Origin: Caballeronia turbans
GTDB lineage: Bacteria; Pseudomonadota; Gammaproteobacteria; Burkholderiales; Burkholderiaceae
Reading direction: 5' to 3'
NCBI GenBank assembly: GCA_001544655.2
Contig: FCOD02000004.1
Location: forward strand, 62,001-126,000
Length of the DNA: 64,000 nt
Shown here: positions 30,939 to 63,547 of the stretch, piece by piece
Layout: every line of letters begins with the position of its first letter
Numbering within the stretch: position 1 is the stretch's first letter
Program-made: the position numbers and the translations under genes
The notes under the pieces: generated by a model
Told to the model about the DNA's origin: nothing
The model's database searches: none
Seen by the model: the letters and a program-made list of their open reading frames with translations, nothing else

Positions 30939-31118
30939 GTGGACAACCCATTCGACGACGATCAGGGCACGTTCCGTGTCCTGATCAACGAATCGCAGCA
31001 GCGCTCGCTCTGGCCCGCTCATCTCGACGTTCCGGACGGCTGGACAGTGGAGTATCCAGACAGTTCGCGCAGGCAATGCCTGGACTACATCGAACAGAAC
31101 TGGACTGCACGGTCCTGA
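30939..31118 (+). CDS. MbtH-like protein
   Basis: 59-residue MbtH-like NRPS chaperone starting at GTG 30939, 8 nt after GAAGGGA. The frame reads VDNPFDDDQGTFRVLINESQ, then SLWPAHLDVPDGWTV, and ends CLDYIEQNWTARS. The family signature (N.e.QyslWP...vP.GW...., then CL.yI..nWtd.rp) is clear, including the Trp residues that grip the adenylation domain. It is slightly short at the C terminus compared with the usual 65-75 residues. MbtH proteins bind and activate adenylation domains; this one lies two genes before the giant NRPS. Confidence 0.88.
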   Translation: MDNPFDDDQGTFRVLINESQQRSLWPAHLDVPDGWTVEYPDSSRRQCLDYIEQNWTARS

Positions 31119-31142
31119 TGATTCTCGATCTGGGAGTGGGAA

Positions 31143-32039
31143 ATGGCCAAGCACATTGTGAAAGTGATCGACCTTGTTCCGGGACGCAGCGTACAGCTTC
31201 CGTCCATCGATAATGAAACGCTCGGCCGCGGGCAATTCTGGAGCGACTATGTCTGTGCTCAGAAACCCGTTGTCATCAGGCGGGCTGTGCGCAACTGGCC
31301 CGCTCTTCAGAAATGGAATGCACCGGGTTATCTGGAAGCATTGACGGATAGCGAAGTCGGCGTCTCCGATGCGTTCAACGCCTCGCCCACCGGCCTCTGG
31401 TATGCAAATCTCCCGAAGCTGAAACTCGGTCAGGCCATCACGCGTCTGCGCAATGCAGGGCCGGACGAGACACATGCGATTCGCGCGTTGCCTATTCCGG
31501 CGGAATGGAAGCCCGATCTCGGCCATTACGATTTTCTCGAAGCAGAGCGCGATCGACCGCCGCGCGCCTACGCGCAAGACCGGCTCTTCATCTATCGGAA
31601 TGCTTCAACCGAATGGCATTACCATACGACCGACGAGACGCTGACCACGCAACTCATCGGGACCAAGCGCATTTCCATGTTCAAGCTGTCCAGCGAAGAC
31701 TGGCAGGCGTATGCCGTGCCGATCAAGTCCAATCTTCATCACATGGATGACAGCGCGCGCTTTTTTCCCGCGGATGGTGCACTGACGAAGTTCGAAGCGA
31801 CGCTTGCGTCCGGCGACGTTCTCTATATTCCGCCGTTCTGGTGGCATGGCGTCGATCCCGCCGATAGCGATTTCGGCATCACACTCGCTCATTGTTTCAG
31901 AACGCCGCTCAATCGCATCGGTTCATTGAGCGATCCCGCCGTGAAAGACGTCATCCACGCGCAGCAAAGCGCGATGCTCGCGTTCCGCATGAGAGCGTTC
32001 GTCGCCCTCGGTTCGCTATCCCGACTCGTGACTTCGTGA
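31143..32039 (+). CDS. JmjC/cupin-8-like putative Fe(II)/2-oxoglutarate oxygenase
   Basis: 298-residue cupin-like protein of the JmjC (FIH-like) family. N terminus PVVIRRAVRNWPALQKW is typical, the core is TEWHYHTTDETLTTQLIGTK, and the distal metal His is in YIPPFWWHGV (His235). In the proximal motif the usual HxD appears as His159-Tyr-His161, with Asp164 three residues on, so the metal site may be altered or shifted. It lies between mbtH-like and NRPS genes (GGGAGTGGGAA before the ATG), suggesting hydroxylation of a residue of the peptide. That role is inferred. Confidence 0.75.
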   Translation: MAKHIVKVIDLVPGRSVQLPSIDNETLGRGQFWSDYVCAQKPVVIRRAVRNWPALQKWNAPGYLEALTDSEVGVSDAFNASPTGLWYANLPKLKLGQAITRLRNAGPDETHAIRALPIPAEWKPDLGHYDFLEAERDRPPRAYAQDRLFIYRNASTEWHYHTTDETLTTQLIGTKRISMFKLSSEDWQAYAVPIKSNLHHMDDSARFFPADGALTKFEATLASGDVLYIPPFWWHGVDPADSDFGITLAHCFRTPLNRIGSLSDPAVKDVIHAQQSAMLAFRMRAFVALGSLSRLVTS

Positions 32040-32205
32040 GTTTCATATCCGCACCCGCGGACGATCGAGGCGCATTTTCGTCCCTCCTCGCCGCCGGATC
32101 AGTCTGACGAACACGCAGGGATCTGTGCCAGGTGGACCCGCGCGCGAACGCGCGTGCGCTTCTTCCACCGCGTTCTGGTGACCCTGTCCTTGACCATCGC
32201 TTTCC

Positions 32206-32223
32206 AGAGCACGCGCGTGCTCT
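32206..32223. promoter_or_regulatory. 18-bp perfect palindrome just before the NRPS start
   Basis: AGAGCACGCGCGTGCTCT is a perfect palindrome ending 18 bp before the NRPS ATG. A TTGACC hexamer at 32190-32195 lies directly upstream. It could be an operator for a separate NRPS promoter or a translation-blocking hairpin in the operon mRNA. The 200-bp gap after the oxygenase gene allows either. Confidence 0.4.
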
Positions 32224-32241
32224 CAACTACGGATCGACGCC

Positions 32242-58473
<26,232 letters not shown>

Positions 58474-58479
58474 AGAACC

Positions 58480-58514
58480 AGCATCGCCACCGCTCAAGAG
58501 GCCGTGGCGATGCT
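58480..58514 (+). terminator. Hairpin downstream of the NRPS gene
   Basis: Perfect 11-bp arms AGCATCGCCAC and GTGGCGATGCT with a 13-nt loop, starting 7 bp after the NRPS stop. There is no T-tract, so it may be a transcript-stabilising or Rho-assisted structure. It also lies between the convergent NRPS and GAF-domain genes. Confidence 0.45.
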
Positions 58515-58575
58515 ATCGAACGAAGGCATGGAAGGAGTCAAACGAGTGCGCCGAGCCCGCCAATATGACGATCGC

Positions 58576-59235
58576 TCAACCTTCGCGCCGCTGCTTGCGA
58601 TCGCTGTGCTTGCGCACGTTGCTGGCGAGTTCAGAAATGATTTCGGTGGCCGCGCCGATGATCTGATTGAAGTCGAATCCCGCGCGCGTCATCTCTCGAT
58701 AGAACGATCGTGCAAGCATCTTGGAGAGCTGGCTCGGGTTCTGGACGGATTGCGCGACGATGTCGCCGATCGTCTGATCCGACGATCGCCTGATCGTTGC
58801 CTGGGCGAACGGCGAGGCGACGAGCTTCTCCAGCCGGTCCGCCTCGACGGATCGCGTGACGAACGTACCGAGAATCTGGAGCAGCTTCAGATCATGTTCA
58901 TCGAATTGCCGTCCGAGCCGCGGTCCCGATACTTGCACGACGCCTATCGTCTTTCCATTCAGCGCGAGGACGGCGAACATCTTGTCGTGCGCGTCCGAGT
59001 ATTCGACGATGGCCGTCTTCTCGCCAATATGGACTTCGCCGAATGCCTCGGTGTGCGCGGAGCACAACTCGGCGACGCGATCATCGACGGGTATCGAAAC
59101 GACGCATCGCTTCACGTGCATTGCCTCGGCGACCATCGCTGCGAGGGCTTCCGGCGAGACGTCGACCCTCTCGGTGTCTGCAAACTCGACGAGCTGAGAA
59201 TCCTGCTCTTCATAGGCATGTTCGGCGCTTTTCAT
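58576..59235 (-). CDS. GAF-domain protein of unknown function
   Basis: 219 residues. The N-terminal ~130 residues look like a GAF sensor domain (VSIPVDDRVAELCSAHTEAF, GEKTAIVEYSDAHDKMFAVL, LLQILGTFVTRSVEADRLEK). The helical C terminus (IGAATEIISELASNVRKHSD) is not recognised and carries no obvious kinase, cyclase or HTH motif. It is antiparallel to the NRPS and divergent from the hydrolase/exporter pair. It might be a regulatory sensor for the cluster; this is inferred from location. Confidence 0.65.
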   Translation of the reverse strand: MKSAEHAYEEQDSQLVEFADTERVDVSPEALAAMVAEAMHVKRCVVSIPVDDRVAELCSAHTEAFGEVHIGEKTAIVEYSDAHDKMFAVLALNGKTIGVVQVSGPRLGRQFDEHDLKLLQILGTFVTRSVEADRLEKLVASPFAQATIRRSSDQTIGDIVAQSVQNPSQLSKMLARSFYREMTRAGFDFNQIIGAATEIISELASNVRKHSDRKQRREG

Positions 59236-59277
59236 GAGGACTCCACCGGTAGGTTGCGATGTGCGTCAGGTTATGCG

Positions 59278-59356
59278 TCGAAAGTTAGTTCGCCCTTAGC
59301 CCATGACCACGATTCGAAACGACCCGCGCCCTCATCGCCCGCTAACTTTCGAAAGA
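59278..59356. promoter_or_regulatory. Paired inverted elements in the GAF/hydrolase divergent promoter
   Basis: TCGAAAGTTAG (59278-59288) reappears inverted as CTAACTTTCGA (59342-59352), 53 bp apart. The second copy is embedded in the perfect palindrome CTTTCGAAAG (59347-59356). The pair spans the region between the divergent starts at 59235 and 59390, so it could bind a dimeric regulator controlling both directions. Confidence 0.45.
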
Positions 59357-59389
59357 CACACTAAGCCTGGTTCCAGATAGGTGCTCAAG

Positions 59390-60265
59390 ATGAAACGTCC
59401 CTTATTCATGCAGCGGCGCAGTATCAAGGTTCGCGACGGCCGTTTTGATATCTCCGTTGAAGAGTCCGGAAGTATCGGCACGCCCTGCGTCTTGCTGCAC
59501 GGCCGCGGCGAGTGCAGCGGCGTATGGCGAACGTTGACCGACGTAGCGTCGGCCGAACATCGCTTCGTGTCGATCGATTTAAGGGGCCACGGCGATTCGA
59601 GCTGGGACCCGGAGCGCGCTTACGATTCACCAACCCTTGCTGGCGACGTGTTACAGGTTCTGCTTGCAATGAACATAAGAAAGCCCGTTCTTATCGGTCA
59701 TTCGCTCGGCGGCAGTGTCGCGTTGCAATTGGATGCCCTGCTCGGGCACCATGTTTCCGGACTGGTCATGGTGGACTTTGGACCGGAATCCGACGCATCG
59801 GGTTCACAACGCGTTCGTGCCGACATACGCGAGACGCCGGCTACGTTCGACACGATCGACGGATACGTATCGTGGTTGCTCGACCGGCGTCCGCTGGCGA
59901 ACGGCCGTGCACTTCGCAATCTCGCCCTGCATGCGTTGCGCCGAACGCCGGCCGGCATGTTCGAGCCGAAGCTAGACCGGCGCGTCGCTGATGAGTCGCC
60001 GCAAAACATGGAGCCGCGCGCGGAACAGCTGTGGCAGATGATGGCGTCCGTGCGCTGCCCGACGCTCGTCGTGAGAGGCGTCGGGTCAGCGGTGCTCAAA
60101 CCGCAGGATGCACAGCGCATGGCGCATCACGCGCTGCGCGAAGGACAGCTCGCCACGATATCCCGCGCCGGCCATGCGGTGATGACCGATAACCCCGATG
60201 AATTCAATCGCACGATCGAGGCATTCCTTGCTTCCCTGCCGCATGCCGCAAGCGGAGGTCAGTGA
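59390..60265 (+). CDS. Alpha/beta hydrolase
   Basis: 291-residue alpha/beta-hydrolase-fold enzyme: oxyanion region LLHGRGECSGVW, DLRGHGDS, nucleophile elbow GHSLGGS, and C-terminal His in RAGHAVMTDNPDEF. No signal peptide. ATG 59390 is favoured over GTG 59381 because AGGTG lies 6 nt upstream. It overlaps the exporter start by 1 bp and so belongs to the cluster. It may serve as a type-II editing thioesterase or as a tailoring/resistance hydrolase, though its sequence is closer to general hydrolases than to typical TEII enzymes. Confidence 0.82.
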   Translation: MKRPLFMQRRSIKVRDGRFDISVEESGSIGTPCVLLHGRGECSGVWRTLTDVASAEHRFVSIDLRGHGDSSWDPERAYDSPTLAGDVLQVLLAMNIRKPVLIGHSLGGSVALQLDALLGHHVSGLVMVDFGPESDASGSQRVRADIRETPATFDTIDGYVSWLLDRRPLANGRALRNLALHALRRTPAGMFEPKLDRRVADESPQNMEPRAEQLWQMMASVRCPTLVVRGVGSAVLKPQDAQRMAHHALREGQLATISRAGHAVMTDNPDEFNRTIEAFLASLPHAASGGQ

Positions 60266-61956
60266 TGTTCTCCATCATTCCCGCGCAGCTTCGCCGACAG
60301 TCCATGCCGCGACTGGTCATCGCAGTCATCGCCGGGTTCGCCGGGGCGCTGTGCAGTGCGGAGATCGCGCGTCTAATCAGCAAAGTCGCCGCCGGTCAGA
60401 TCGAAACGCGCGGACTGGTGATCGTTTTCTTCGCGGTGTGCGCGGCGCAACTGCTGTTCAGAACGAGTTCGCAGATCATCGTGCTGGATTTCGGTCAGCA
60501 GGTGATATGCAGTCTTCGAATCGAGCTATGCCGCAAGATTCTGCGCACGCCCTACAAGAAGCTGCAAACGCTTGGCAAGCCGCGCCTGCTCGCCATTCTT
60601 ACCACAGACATCAACACGTTCGCGCAAGCTTCGCAAATGCTGCCGCTCGCGTTCGGCAACGTGGTGCTCATCGCCGTATGCCTCGTGTATATGGCGTGGC
60701 TTTCGTGGCAGGCGTTCGCGTGCTTTTTCGTCTTTCTCGTCGTCGGAGGGGCGATTTATCATGTTATCGAGCGCTGGCCCTTGCGCGAAATGCAAGCGGT
60801 GAGAGATCAGCTCGATGCCATCTTCAGGCACTTTCGTTCCTTGCTGGAAGGCACGCGGGAATTGCAACTCAACGACGCGCGAGCCCGATACTTCACCGAG
60901 CACGTCGTTCATTCGACCGCACACGCATTCCGCCGATCGTTCACCCGCGCGATGCTCGTCTATTCGCTCGTCGCCAACGCGGGTGGCATGCTCTTCTATG
61001 TGGCGATCGGCCTGATTCTGCTCGTCGTGCCGCATTGGTTTCCACAATCGCACGGCGTGCTCGTGACGCTCACCCTCTTGCTTCTCTTCCTGATCCAGCC
61101 GGTCAGCGAAGTCATGACGACTTTGCCGATTCTTCGTCAGGCGTCGATTGCGCTGGGGCGCATCCGCATTCTCGATGCCGAGCTCACGCAGCAACCGGAT
61201 GATGATGCTCATGTCACGCCAGACGATCCCTTCGGGGACGCAGCCGAAGGCGTGCCGCTGATCCGGTTCTCCGCCGTATCGCATCGATATCCGGGGCTGA
61301 CGGAAGATCATCCGTTCACATTGGGGCCGATTGATCTATCGATTCGTCAGGGCGAAGTGGTCTACTTGATCGGCGGCAACGGCAGCGGCAAGACTACGCT
61401 CGCGATGCTGCTGCTCGGACTGTACGAACCCGAGCAAGGGCATGTGGAATTGAACGGCGTAAGAGTCGAGCGGGAGAACCTTGCGCATTATCGCGAGCGC
61501 TTCTCGGCCGTGTTCGCCGACTTTCATCTGTTCGATGAGGTGCTGTGTGAAGACCAGTCGCAGATTGCGAAGCAGGCGGCGCAGTATCTTCACAAGCTCG
61601 AACTCGATCACAAGGTCAGCATGAAGGGCAACCGGTTCAGCACGGTCAATCTCTCTTCCGGACAACGCAAGCGCATGGCGCTCATAGCGTCGTATCTGGA
61701 AGATCGCCCAATCTATCTGTTCGACGAATGGGCCGCCGATCAGGATCCCGTATTCAGGCGCGTGTTCTACACGCAGTTGATTCCCGAGCTCAAGCGCAAG
61801 GGGAAGACAGTCATCGTCATCTCTCACGACGATGCCTATTTCGAATGCGCCGATCGTCTCGTTCAGGTTGCGAACGGGCGCCTTACCGACGTATCCTCGG
61901 AAGCACTGAAAGAAGGCCTGTTCGCCGGACGCGGTGGCTCGGCAGTGGCGGAATGA
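60265..61956 (+). CDS. Cyclic-peptide-type ABC exporter (PvdE/SyrD family)
   Basis: 563-residue fused exporter: an N-terminal membrane domain with about six spans (residues ~10-300), then an ATPase with Walker A GGNGSGKTT, signature LSSGQRKRMAL and Walker B IYLFDEWAADQDPVFR. The FDEWAADQDP sequence is diagnostic of the cyclic peptide transporter family that moves pyoverdine precursors and lipopeptides across the inner membrane. ATG at 60265 follows GGAGG. It is the presumed exporter of the NRPS product. Confidence 0.92.
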   Translation: MFSIIPAQLRRQSMPRLVIAVIAGFAGALCSAEIARLISKVAAGQIETRGLVIVFFAVCAAQLLFRTSSQIIVLDFGQQVICSLRIELCRKILRTPYKKLQTLGKPRLLAILTTDINTFAQASQMLPLAFGNVVLIAVCLVYMAWLSWQAFACFFVFLVVGGAIYHVIERWPLREMQAVRDQLDAIFRHFRSLLEGTRELQLNDARARYFTEHVVHSTAHAFRRSFTRAMLVYSLVANAGGMLFYVAIGLILLVVPHWFPQSHGVLVTLTLLLLFLIQPVSEVMTTLPILRQASIALGRIRILDAELTQQPDDDAHVTPDDPFGDAAEGVPLIRFSAVSHRYPGLTEDHPFTLGPIDLSIRQGEVVYLIGGNGSGKTTLAMLLLGLYEPEQGHVELNGVRVERENLAHYRERFSAVFADFHLFDEVLCEDQSQIAKQAAQYLHKLELDHKVSMKGNRFSTVNLSSGQRKRMALIASYLEDRPIYLFDEWAADQDPVFRRVFYTQLIPELKRKGKTVIVISHDDAYFECADRLVQVANGRLTDVSSEALKEGLFAGRGGSAVAE

Positions 61957-62254: not shown

Positions 62255-62314
62255 CGTTGCGATCGTCCGTTATGGAATGCTGTGCTCGGAACCACATGGC
62301 TACAGGAAGCGAAT

Positions 62315-63547
62315 ATGGACTTTGATGTAATGGTGCTCGGCGCGGGTATCGTCGGAACCTCGATAGCCGTTCACTTGCAGCGCCGTGGAGCGAAGGTCGC
62401 GCTGATCGACCGAAAGGCGCCCGGTAACGAGACATCGCTGGGCAATGCCGGCATCATCCAGCGAGAAGGCGTCTACCCGTATGCCTTTCCGCGCGACCTT
62501 GCCACGATCTCGCGATACGCGTCGAACCGCGCAACCGACGTCAGATACCATGCGGCCGCCATGCCGAAGCTGCTGCCGTTCCTGCTTCGCTACTGGCATC
62601 ATTCCCGACCCGACCGTCACGCGAAGATCGCGCGTGCTTATTCGGCGCTGATCGGACATAGCGTTTCCGAACATCGGGAACTGATCGACGCAGCCGGTGC
62701 TGACGCGCTGCTGAGAACCGGAGGATGGATCAACGCTTTCCGGACAACCAAAGCGTTCGACATTGCCGTGAACGAGGCTTCGCGCTGGAAAGACGAATAT
62801 GGCATTCCGTTCGATGCCCTTTCCTACGAGGCCCTGCATGACGCGGAGCCTTCGCTCGGCCGCGCACTCAAAGCGGCTCTCCGATACACATCCGCAGATT
62901 CGGTGAGCGATCCGTCGGGCCTCGTGCGGGCGTATGCGAAGCTGTTCGAGACGCTTGGCGGCACCGTATTGATCGGCGATGCATCGACGCTCGAAACCGG
63001 ATGGCGGTTGACTACCGCATCAGGCGTCGTATCGGCGAAACAGGCCGTCGTCGCGCTGGGACCGTGGTCGACTGATGCGATTGCGAAGCTGGGCTATCGC
63101 TTTCCGCTCGAGGTCAAACGCGGCTATCACATGCACTACGCGGCGAAGCCCGGTGCAACGCTTAATCAACCTGTGCTCGATGCGGAAGTCGGCTATGTCA
63201 TCACGCCCATGACACGCGGCATCCGCTTGACGACAGGCGTCGAGCTCGGCCTCAGGGATTCGCCGAAGACGCCCGTGCAACTGGCGGCGGTGGAGCCTTT
63301 CGCTCGCGAAACGTTTCCGCTCGGCGAGCGCCTCGATGCGCAACCCTGGCTCGGGCGCCGACCGTGCACGCCCGACATGATGCCCGTGATCGGCCCGGCG
63401 CCGCGCCATGCAAATCTGTGGTTCGCCTTCGGTCATGCGCATCATGGGCTCACGCTCGGCCCGGTCACCGGACGCATCATCGCCGAGATGATGACCGGCG
63501 AGACTCCGCTCGTGGACCCTCGCCCGTTTCGTGCGGACCGGTTCTGA
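62315..63547 (+). CDS. FAD-dependent oxidoreductase, DadA-like amino acid dehydrogenase
   Basis: 410 residues. N-terminal dinucleotide motif VLGAGIVGTSIAVHLQRRGA with the Glu/Asp-equivalent IDRKAPG, then a DAO-fold body (EVKRGYHMHYA, LTTGVELGLRD) and C-terminal FAD contact GHAHHGLTLGPVTGR. Such enzymes oxidise D-amino acids or secondary amines. ATG at 62315 follows CAGGAAG. It lies outside the debris on the right flank, so involvement in the NRPS pathway is doubtful even though the predicted peptide contains D-residues. Confidence 0.85.
   Translation: MDFDVMVLGAGIVGTSIAVHLQRRGAKVALIDRKAPGNETSLGNAGIIQREGVYPYAFPRDLATISRYASNRATDVRYHAAAMPKLLPFLLRYWHHSRPDRHAKIARAYSALIGHSVSEHRELIDAAGADALLRTGGWINAFRTTKAFDIAVNEASRWKDEYGIPFDALSYEALHDAEPSLGRALKAALRYTSADSVSDPSGLVRAYAKLFETLGGTVLIGDASTLETGWRLTTASGVVSAKQAVVALGPWSTDAIAKLGYRFPLEVKRGYHMHYAAKPGATLNQPVLDAEVGYVITPMTRGIRLTTGVELGLRDSPKTPVQLAAVEPFARETFPLGERLDAQPWLGRRPCTPDMMPVIGPAPRHANLWFAFGHAHHGLTLGPVTGRIIAEMMTGETPLVDPRPFRADRF

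Follow-up and report, generated by a model that had tools for sequence, protein, structure and literature searches.

Among described nonribosomal peptide synthetases (NRPSs), those of the rhizomide, holrhizin and glidobactin type in Burkholderiales offer the nearest comparison for starting a lipopeptide. The starter condensation (C) domain of RzmA uses acyl-CoA, and its structures include one solved with octanoyl-CoA (PMC7804268, seen in part); it is the closest solved relative by sequence of the first C domain (C1) reported here. Concerted evolution is presented as a general process in NRPS and polyketide synthase (PKS) clusters, and internal recombination keeps duplicated modules alike in the daptomycin/A54145/calcium-dependent antibiotic (CDA) and syringopeptin clusters (PMC4256081, accessible part). 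The Cupin_8 proteins LxaF-G have been proposed to hydroxylate residues during laxaphycin assembly (PMC7524897, accessible part). We analysed a 64,000-nt stretch of the Caballeronia turbans genome (assembly GCA_001544655.2, contig FCOD02000004.1, positions 62,001 to 126,000, forward strand; hereafter the window). It holds a cluster at 30939-61956 with the gene order mbtH, Cupin_8, NRPS, alpha/beta hydrolase and exporter (Table 1). Judged from sequence, this is probably a genus-restricted Caballeronia lipopeptide cluster encoding a lipo-initiated octapeptide, its release by a thioesterase (TE) and its export. We regard it as an orphan lipopeptide cluster of ordinary kind, with unusually clean concerted evolution of its modules.

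Assembly line and predicted product

Domains. The NRPS is a single protein of 8743 residues, as an earlier reading made from the sequence alone had stated, and its reading frame runs without an internal stop. Pfam finds repeated Condensation, AMP-binding, AMP-binding_C and PP-binding domains and a single Thioesterase, although at the strict threshold of 1e-10 just 4 + 2 PP-binding stretches pass singly. Motif counts give eight adenylation (A) domains, eight thiolation (T) cores, eight C active sites and one GWSFGG.

Codes. Ten-letter A-domain codes (Table 1) were extracted by multiple alignment to GrsA. In the accessible part of PMC12283262, DSALIAEVWK is a code for His that also accepts the beta-hydroxylated form, DAQDLGVVDK is given for both Glu and Gln, DLTKVGHVGK for both Asp and Asn, and DFWNIGMVHK is listed among Thr codes; its Gly code DILQLGMIWK matches the code of modules 6 and 8 at 8 of 10 positions. 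The predicted product is acyl-D-Gln(Glu)-Thr-His-Glu-D-Asp(Asn)-Gly-D-Ala-Gly, in which codes 1 and 5 leave Gln/Glu and Asp/Asn ambiguous. The sequence-only reading had read the codes by hand, and the computed codes agree with it within that ambiguity. It had left residue 3 unread and called the octapeptide acidic; eight codes do give an octapeptide, but residue 3 is His, which makes the product less purely acidic than supposed.

Initiation and stereochemistry. In the PDB, C1 is matched best by 7c1k, 7c1h and 7c1p (RzmA-Cs) and next by 5du9 and 4jn3 (CDA peptide synthetase I). On these matches C1 is a putative lipoinitiating starter domain, as found in lipo-initiated NRPS clusters. The rhizomide, holrhizin and glidobactin-type NRPSs are likewise assembly lines for lipopeptides of Burkholderiales hosts, but are not known to share the module order, residue set or length of this one. 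Dual epimerisation/condensation (E/C) domains carry the signature HH[LIM]x4GD. Among the eight C domains HHMLTTEGD is restricted to C2, C6 and C8, and the E-domain motif EGHGRE occurs nowhere in the NRPS. Dual motifs in part of the C domains, with free-standing E domains absent, are the pattern of a Gram-negative lipopeptide synthetase of the dual E/C type, to which we assign this one on its motifs.

Proposed assembly. The starter domain would load a fatty acyl group onto residue 1, presumably from the general acyl-CoA pool. Eight collinear modules would then build the octapeptide, with residues 1, 5 and 7 turned to D by the dual E/C domains. The TE would free the chain. A macrolactone is the most likely form, perhaps closed through Thr2 as the sequence-only reading proposed, though another ring or a linear acid may result instead. 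The ABC transporter would carry the product out. The transporter is of the PvdE/SyrD type claimed earlier, scoring above the TIGR01194 cut-off. Because the codes, the starter-type C1, the dual E/C motifs, the TE and a cyclic-peptide exporter agree, there is good support, as a prediction, for an octapeptide that is lipo-initiated and probably cyclised. A surface-active or antagonistic role would suit such a product.

Several points weigh against this reading. C1 has weaker matches to ObiF1 and EntF as well. The codes of modules 4 (DSKDLGVVDK) and 7 (DLYNNALTYK) are assigned to Glu and Ala by general code tables. Neither an acyl-CoA ligase nor an acyl carrier gene turned up among the neighbouring genes inspected (in the window, those from 20 kb onward), so the acyl donor is an assumption.

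The similarity of C1 to the CDA starter domain also bears on a different product, a calcium-dependent antibiotic-like lipopeptide acting in the manner of daptomycin or CDA. An acidic, Gly-containing peptide with an Asp-Gly step would suit it, and CDA closes through a Thr2 lactone, as may happen here. Calcium-dependent lipopeptides have an Asp-X-Asp-Gly motif, however, and the codes here run Glu-Asp-Gly-Ala-Gly. We therefore do not place the product in that class and consider this reading very improbable.

Distribution. With the cupin gene as a marker, 11 of 58 Caballeronia genomes match at E <1e-160, the window's own counted, and a twelfth has a weak match only. Of 398 Burkholderiaceae genomes in 25 genera, these 11 and no others match at E 1e-40 or better, and at that level the marker is absent from the 24 other genera sampled. 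The same eight residues are encoded in the same order by Caballeronia sp. NK8 (NZ_AP024325.1; G035) and by plasmid p2 of C. zhejiangensis A33_M4_a, which shows that the order is not chance. In both, seven codes are letter-identical to those of the window and the Thr code is one letter off (DFWNIGMVHK). NRPS DNA identity between NK8 and the window is about 80%. Both complete relatives carry the cluster on circular secondary replicons, a 440-kb plasmid (NZ_CP084288.1) and a 1.68-Mb plasmid (NZ_AP024325.1). C. megalochromosomata (G020) has all eight codes spread over four contigs, with DSKDFGVVDK as its Glu code. In the C. arvi assembly (G002), one contig encodes Gln-Thr-Asp-Gly and a second Ala-Gly-TE, His-Glu being absent. 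The remaining marker-bearing genomes are too fragmented for their modules to be read.

Literature. Among the matches listed in a search of open-licence papers aimed at the product, we found no described product with Gln-Thr-His-Glu-Asp-Gly-Ala-Gly. The accessible parts of two papers on Caballeronia insect symbionts (PMC9088363, PMC11075893) contain neither ‘nonribosomal’ nor ‘NRPS’; the former gives Anasa tristis as the isolation source of A33_M4_a. The product is likely undescribed, which is somewhat short of established for the earlier claim of novelty. The scan with the model for SolG, the solanimycin NRPS (NF041803), covered the C-terminal half of the present NRPS and scored it above the cut-off, yet the two are not orthologous; the score is summed over four stretches on a model the size of one module (1163 positions) and is inflated by the repeated modules. 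The cluster would give a genus with squash-bug symbionts among its members a further lipopeptide family, apparently uncharacterised, and the predicted composition is specific enough for a search by mass. With an assumed 3-hydroxydecanoyl chain, the calculated masses are 965.445 for the octapeptide lactone, 983.456 for the linear acid, 981.440 for the lactone plus one oxygen and 837.387 for a hexapeptide lactone.

An exact repeat within the synthetase

Two stretches of the NRPS gene, each reaching from one module into the next, are identical over 3730 bp (Table 1). They are offset by 6354 bp (2118 codons), and no other exact direct repeat in the window reaches 100 bp. The sequence-only reading had missed this repeat, which starts near the YRTGD region of A5 and A7; its end lies inside the GGHSLLA core of T6 and T8. 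Identity between the two copies of a genome is 100% in the window, 97.7% in NK8, 94.9% in C. megalochromosomata and 93.4% in C. arvi. In A33_M4_a the copies are 98.9% identical, with an exact run of 3314 bp from the same start residue as the window repeat. Compared with the window copy, those of C. zhejiangensis are 93-94% identical and those of other genomes 81-84%.

A tree was built from 11 of the 13 extracted copies, two copies shorter than 3.3 kb being left out. Copies pair by genome in all four genomes, three pairs with 100/100 support and the window pair being identical; in a fifth genome, A33_M4_a, they pair within the genome by identity. The duplicated modules branch by cluster and not by position, the pattern of concerted evolution. 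The simplest reading of these sequences is that one duplication took place long ago and gene conversion then acted repeatedly; separate duplications at identical points would be less simple. Modules 5c-6 and 7c-8 would thus be kept alike through recombination.

As a process this is not new, since PMC4256081 describes it as general, and the likeness to the daptomycin/A54145/CDA and syringopeptin clusters is plain. Unlike the cases in the accessible part of that paper, the tract here is exact over 3.7 kb, from the YRTGD region to the GGHSLLA core, and it is flanked by A cores of differing specificity (Asp and Ala). It is the exactness and the bounds of the repeat that are new. They make it a clean natural test of how module pairs are gained or lost at defined points (YRTGD region and carrier core), which is relevant to NRPS engineering.

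Copies exact over such a length in an assembly of 120 contigs could also come from a module pair duplicated or over-polished during assembly, the true synthetase having six modules. Two drafts, C. zhejiangensis OP-1 (G057) and G018, do have six modules and lack Ala-Gly; among the matches listed for them none to the Ala domain reaches 78%, and there are only 64-76% matches to other modules. However, the complete circular plasmid p2 of A33_M4_a has eight modules and its own exact run, NK8 has eight modules with copies that are not identical, and the C7-A7 segment between the copies is matched at 78-81% identity in NK8, C. megalochromosomata and C. arvi. For the eight-module architecture an artefact is largely refuted, and we hold it to be highly unlikely.

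Gene conversion between the copies, our preferred reading, has a counterpart in deletion: a loop-out of 6354 bp would leave a hexapeptide synthetase. The OP-1 draft is 99.7-99.9% identical to A33_M4_a where aligned and is missing exactly one 6354-bp unit. At all 42 diagnostic sites it has the copy-1 letter of A33_M4_a, after which it continues into the copy-2 flank. This would suit a real loop-out as well as a collapse during assembly. We did not accept the six-module drafts as real losses: the genome collection leaves out contigs <3 kb (contigs of the fragmented genomes are all >3 kb where length is shown), so that a piece of about 2.6 kb between the copies may have been lost from these assemblies.

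A Cupin_8 clade with a different metal motif

The gene before the NRPS had been taken for an oxygenase. Its family match to Cupin_8 (PF13621) holds, but the metal site lacks the HXD motif, and an oxygenase is doubtful. JmjC and FIH-type 2-oxoglutarate hydroxylases bind metal through an HX[D/E]...H triad, and classic cupins have HXHX3-4E. The PDB matches of the cupin profile are 3al5 (TYW5), JMJD7, JMJD5 and FIH. His161 lines up with the Asp of HYD in 3al5, and the distal His is retained.

We aligned 20 cupins, the window protein and those of 19 of 32 loci; the weak loci L022-L033 were left out, as was L017, which comes from a second strain of Vibrio penaeicida. Identity to the window protein is 26-92% among the other 19. 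H159, H161, D164, E165 and H235 are invariant and the motif W-H-x-H-x2-D-E-T is present in all 20, H-x-H-x2-D-E replacing HYD throughout, so that the JmjC/FIH-type triad is not seen in any. Of the 12 more distant loci (L022-L033, mostly cyanobacterial), 11 have an HXD-type motif and in one none was found. NRPS or PKS pieces lie within 10 kb of the cupin in 10 of 11 clade loci outside Caballeronia (L011-L021); the exception, L015, is on a 9-kb contig, and one species is represented among the ten by two strains. By sequence, the window cupin falls in a Cupin_8 clade linked to NRPS/PKS genes, in which HXHX2DE replaces the HXD motif of JmjC proteins and the metal site is apparently non-canonical.

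Like laxaphycin LxaF-G (PMC7524897, accessible part), this is an NRPS-linked Cupin_8 protein. It differs from the mostly cyanobacterial, HXD-type weak matches in having HXHX2DE, a comparison that covered L022-L033. The protein probably alters a carrier-bound residue of the peptide, and its clade offers a candidate tailoring enzyme that can be tested. We rejected His3 as its target, as C. arvi retains the cupin gene without assembled His-Glu modules. A Massilia cluster beside a 46%-identical cupin has no His code in the seven A domains extracted by a fixed motif, which some A domains may have escaped; Gln and Thr codes are present there.

Asp5, perhaps β-hydroxylated by the cupin, could together with His3 chelate iron or another metal, the PvdE-like exporter then serving a metallophore. 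The exporter family includes siderophore exporters, which we count in favour. Both DSALIAEVWK and Asp/Asn codes can take beta-hydroxylated residues (PMC12283262, accessible part). However, none of the five TonB plug matches in the genome is on the cluster's contig (C59), leaving no linked TonB-dependent receptor of the kind expected for an NRPS siderophore cluster, and the annotated A33_M4_a neighbours show no receptor except a porin. The tailoring gene is Cupin_8 and not TauD-like, without HXD, and C. arvi keeps it while its assembled NRPS pieces have no His-Glu modules. A metallophore is improbable. A bolder proposal would extend the lipopeptide reading: the repeat as a natural, often-used recombination site at which RecA-type exchange homogenises modules 6 and 8 and, by looping out 6354 bp, can switch populations between octa- and hexapeptide, combined with 3-His-1-Glu-like Cupin_8 tailoring outside the FIH/JmjC mechanism. 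This combination we rate as unlikely.

Two further observations concern the clade. In Paraburkholderia acidicola ATCC 31363 (L012, 10001-10804) an HXHX2DE cupin adjoins a PKS with tandem acyl carrier domains, not an NRPS. In Vibrio penaeicida, Vibrio sp. and Marinomonas (L016-L020), cupins of the clade lie near NRPS genes with the unfamiliar codes DAACLGLIDK, DAACLGMVDK and DAACLGLVDK.

Gene layout and neighbouring genes

Table 1. Features of the cluster in window coordinates; module and thioesterase boundaries are approximate
Feature	Position	Strand	Details
mbtH-like helper, 59 aa	30939..31118	+	PF03621, E 5.4e-25
Cupin_8/JmjC-like protein, 298 aa, putative tailoring enzyme	31143..32039	+	PF13621, E 2.5e-16; HXHX2DE motif
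Eight-module NRPS, 8743 aa	32242..58473	+	Uninterrupted open reading frame, Pfam domains, motif counts
Module 1: starter-type C-A(Gln/Glu)-T	32242..35466	+	DAQDLGVVDK
Module 2: dual E/C-A(Thr)-T	35467..38625	+	DFWNVGMVHK; HHMLTTEGD at residue 1106; predicted epimerisation of residue 1
Module 3: C-A(His)-T	38626..41790	+	DSALIAEVWK
Module 4: C-A(Glu-like)-T	41791..44952	+	DSKDLGVVDK
Module 5: C-A(Asp/Asn)-T	44953..48195	+	DLTKVGHVGK
Repeat copy 1: A5 C-terminal subdomain-T5-E/C6-A6-T6 core	47462..51191	+	3730 bp, 100% identical to copy 2
Module 6: dual E/C-A(Gly)-T	48196..51351	+	DILQLGLVWK; HHMLTTEGD at residue 5348
Module 7: C-A(Ala)-T	51352..54549	+	DLYNNALTYK
Repeat copy 2: A7 C-terminal subdomain-T7-E/C8-A8-T8 core	53816..57545	+	
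Module 8: dual E/C-A(Gly)-T	54550..57681	+	DILQLGLVWK; HHMLTTEGD at residue 7466
Thioesterase domain	57682..58473	+	PF00975, E 2.1e-29; GWSFGG at residue 8563
Small hypothetical protein	58576..59235	-	GAF match slightly under cut-off
Alpha/beta hydrolase (Abhydrolase)	59381..60265	+	PF12697, E 5.1e-22
Cyclic peptide export ABC transporter, SyrD/PvdE type	60262..61956	+	TIGR01194, 467 bits (cut-off 286)

The source genome is 7.35 Mb in 120 contigs. The MbtH-like helper named by the sequence-only reading bears out, and its gene is the sole PF03621 match genome-wide at E 0.001. The small hypothetical protein lies between the NRPS and hydrolase genes; in A33_M4_a, too, a hypothetical protein is annotated in the matching position on that strand. 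Family scans of an open reading frame on the + strand (58504-59364) gave no match, and the A33_M4_a gene annotated opposite it runs on the other strand. The alpha/beta hydrolase is possibly a type II thioesterase or a peptide hydrolase.

A second, two-module NRPS lies downstream of the cluster in NK8 (region of G035:C4:235674-236420), G018 (G018:C4:190412-191158) and C. megalochromosomata (G020:C283:11257-12000). Its codes are DVAQVGAVCK and Thr, and its first C domain is similar. In the window genome a ninth related A domain was not found at E 1e-60. After the exporter, at 62282-63547, the window has an FAD-dependent DAO-family gene resembling D-amino acid dehydrogenases. It is probably outside the cluster, because the next annotated gene downstream in A33_M4_a is a chemotaxis receptor.

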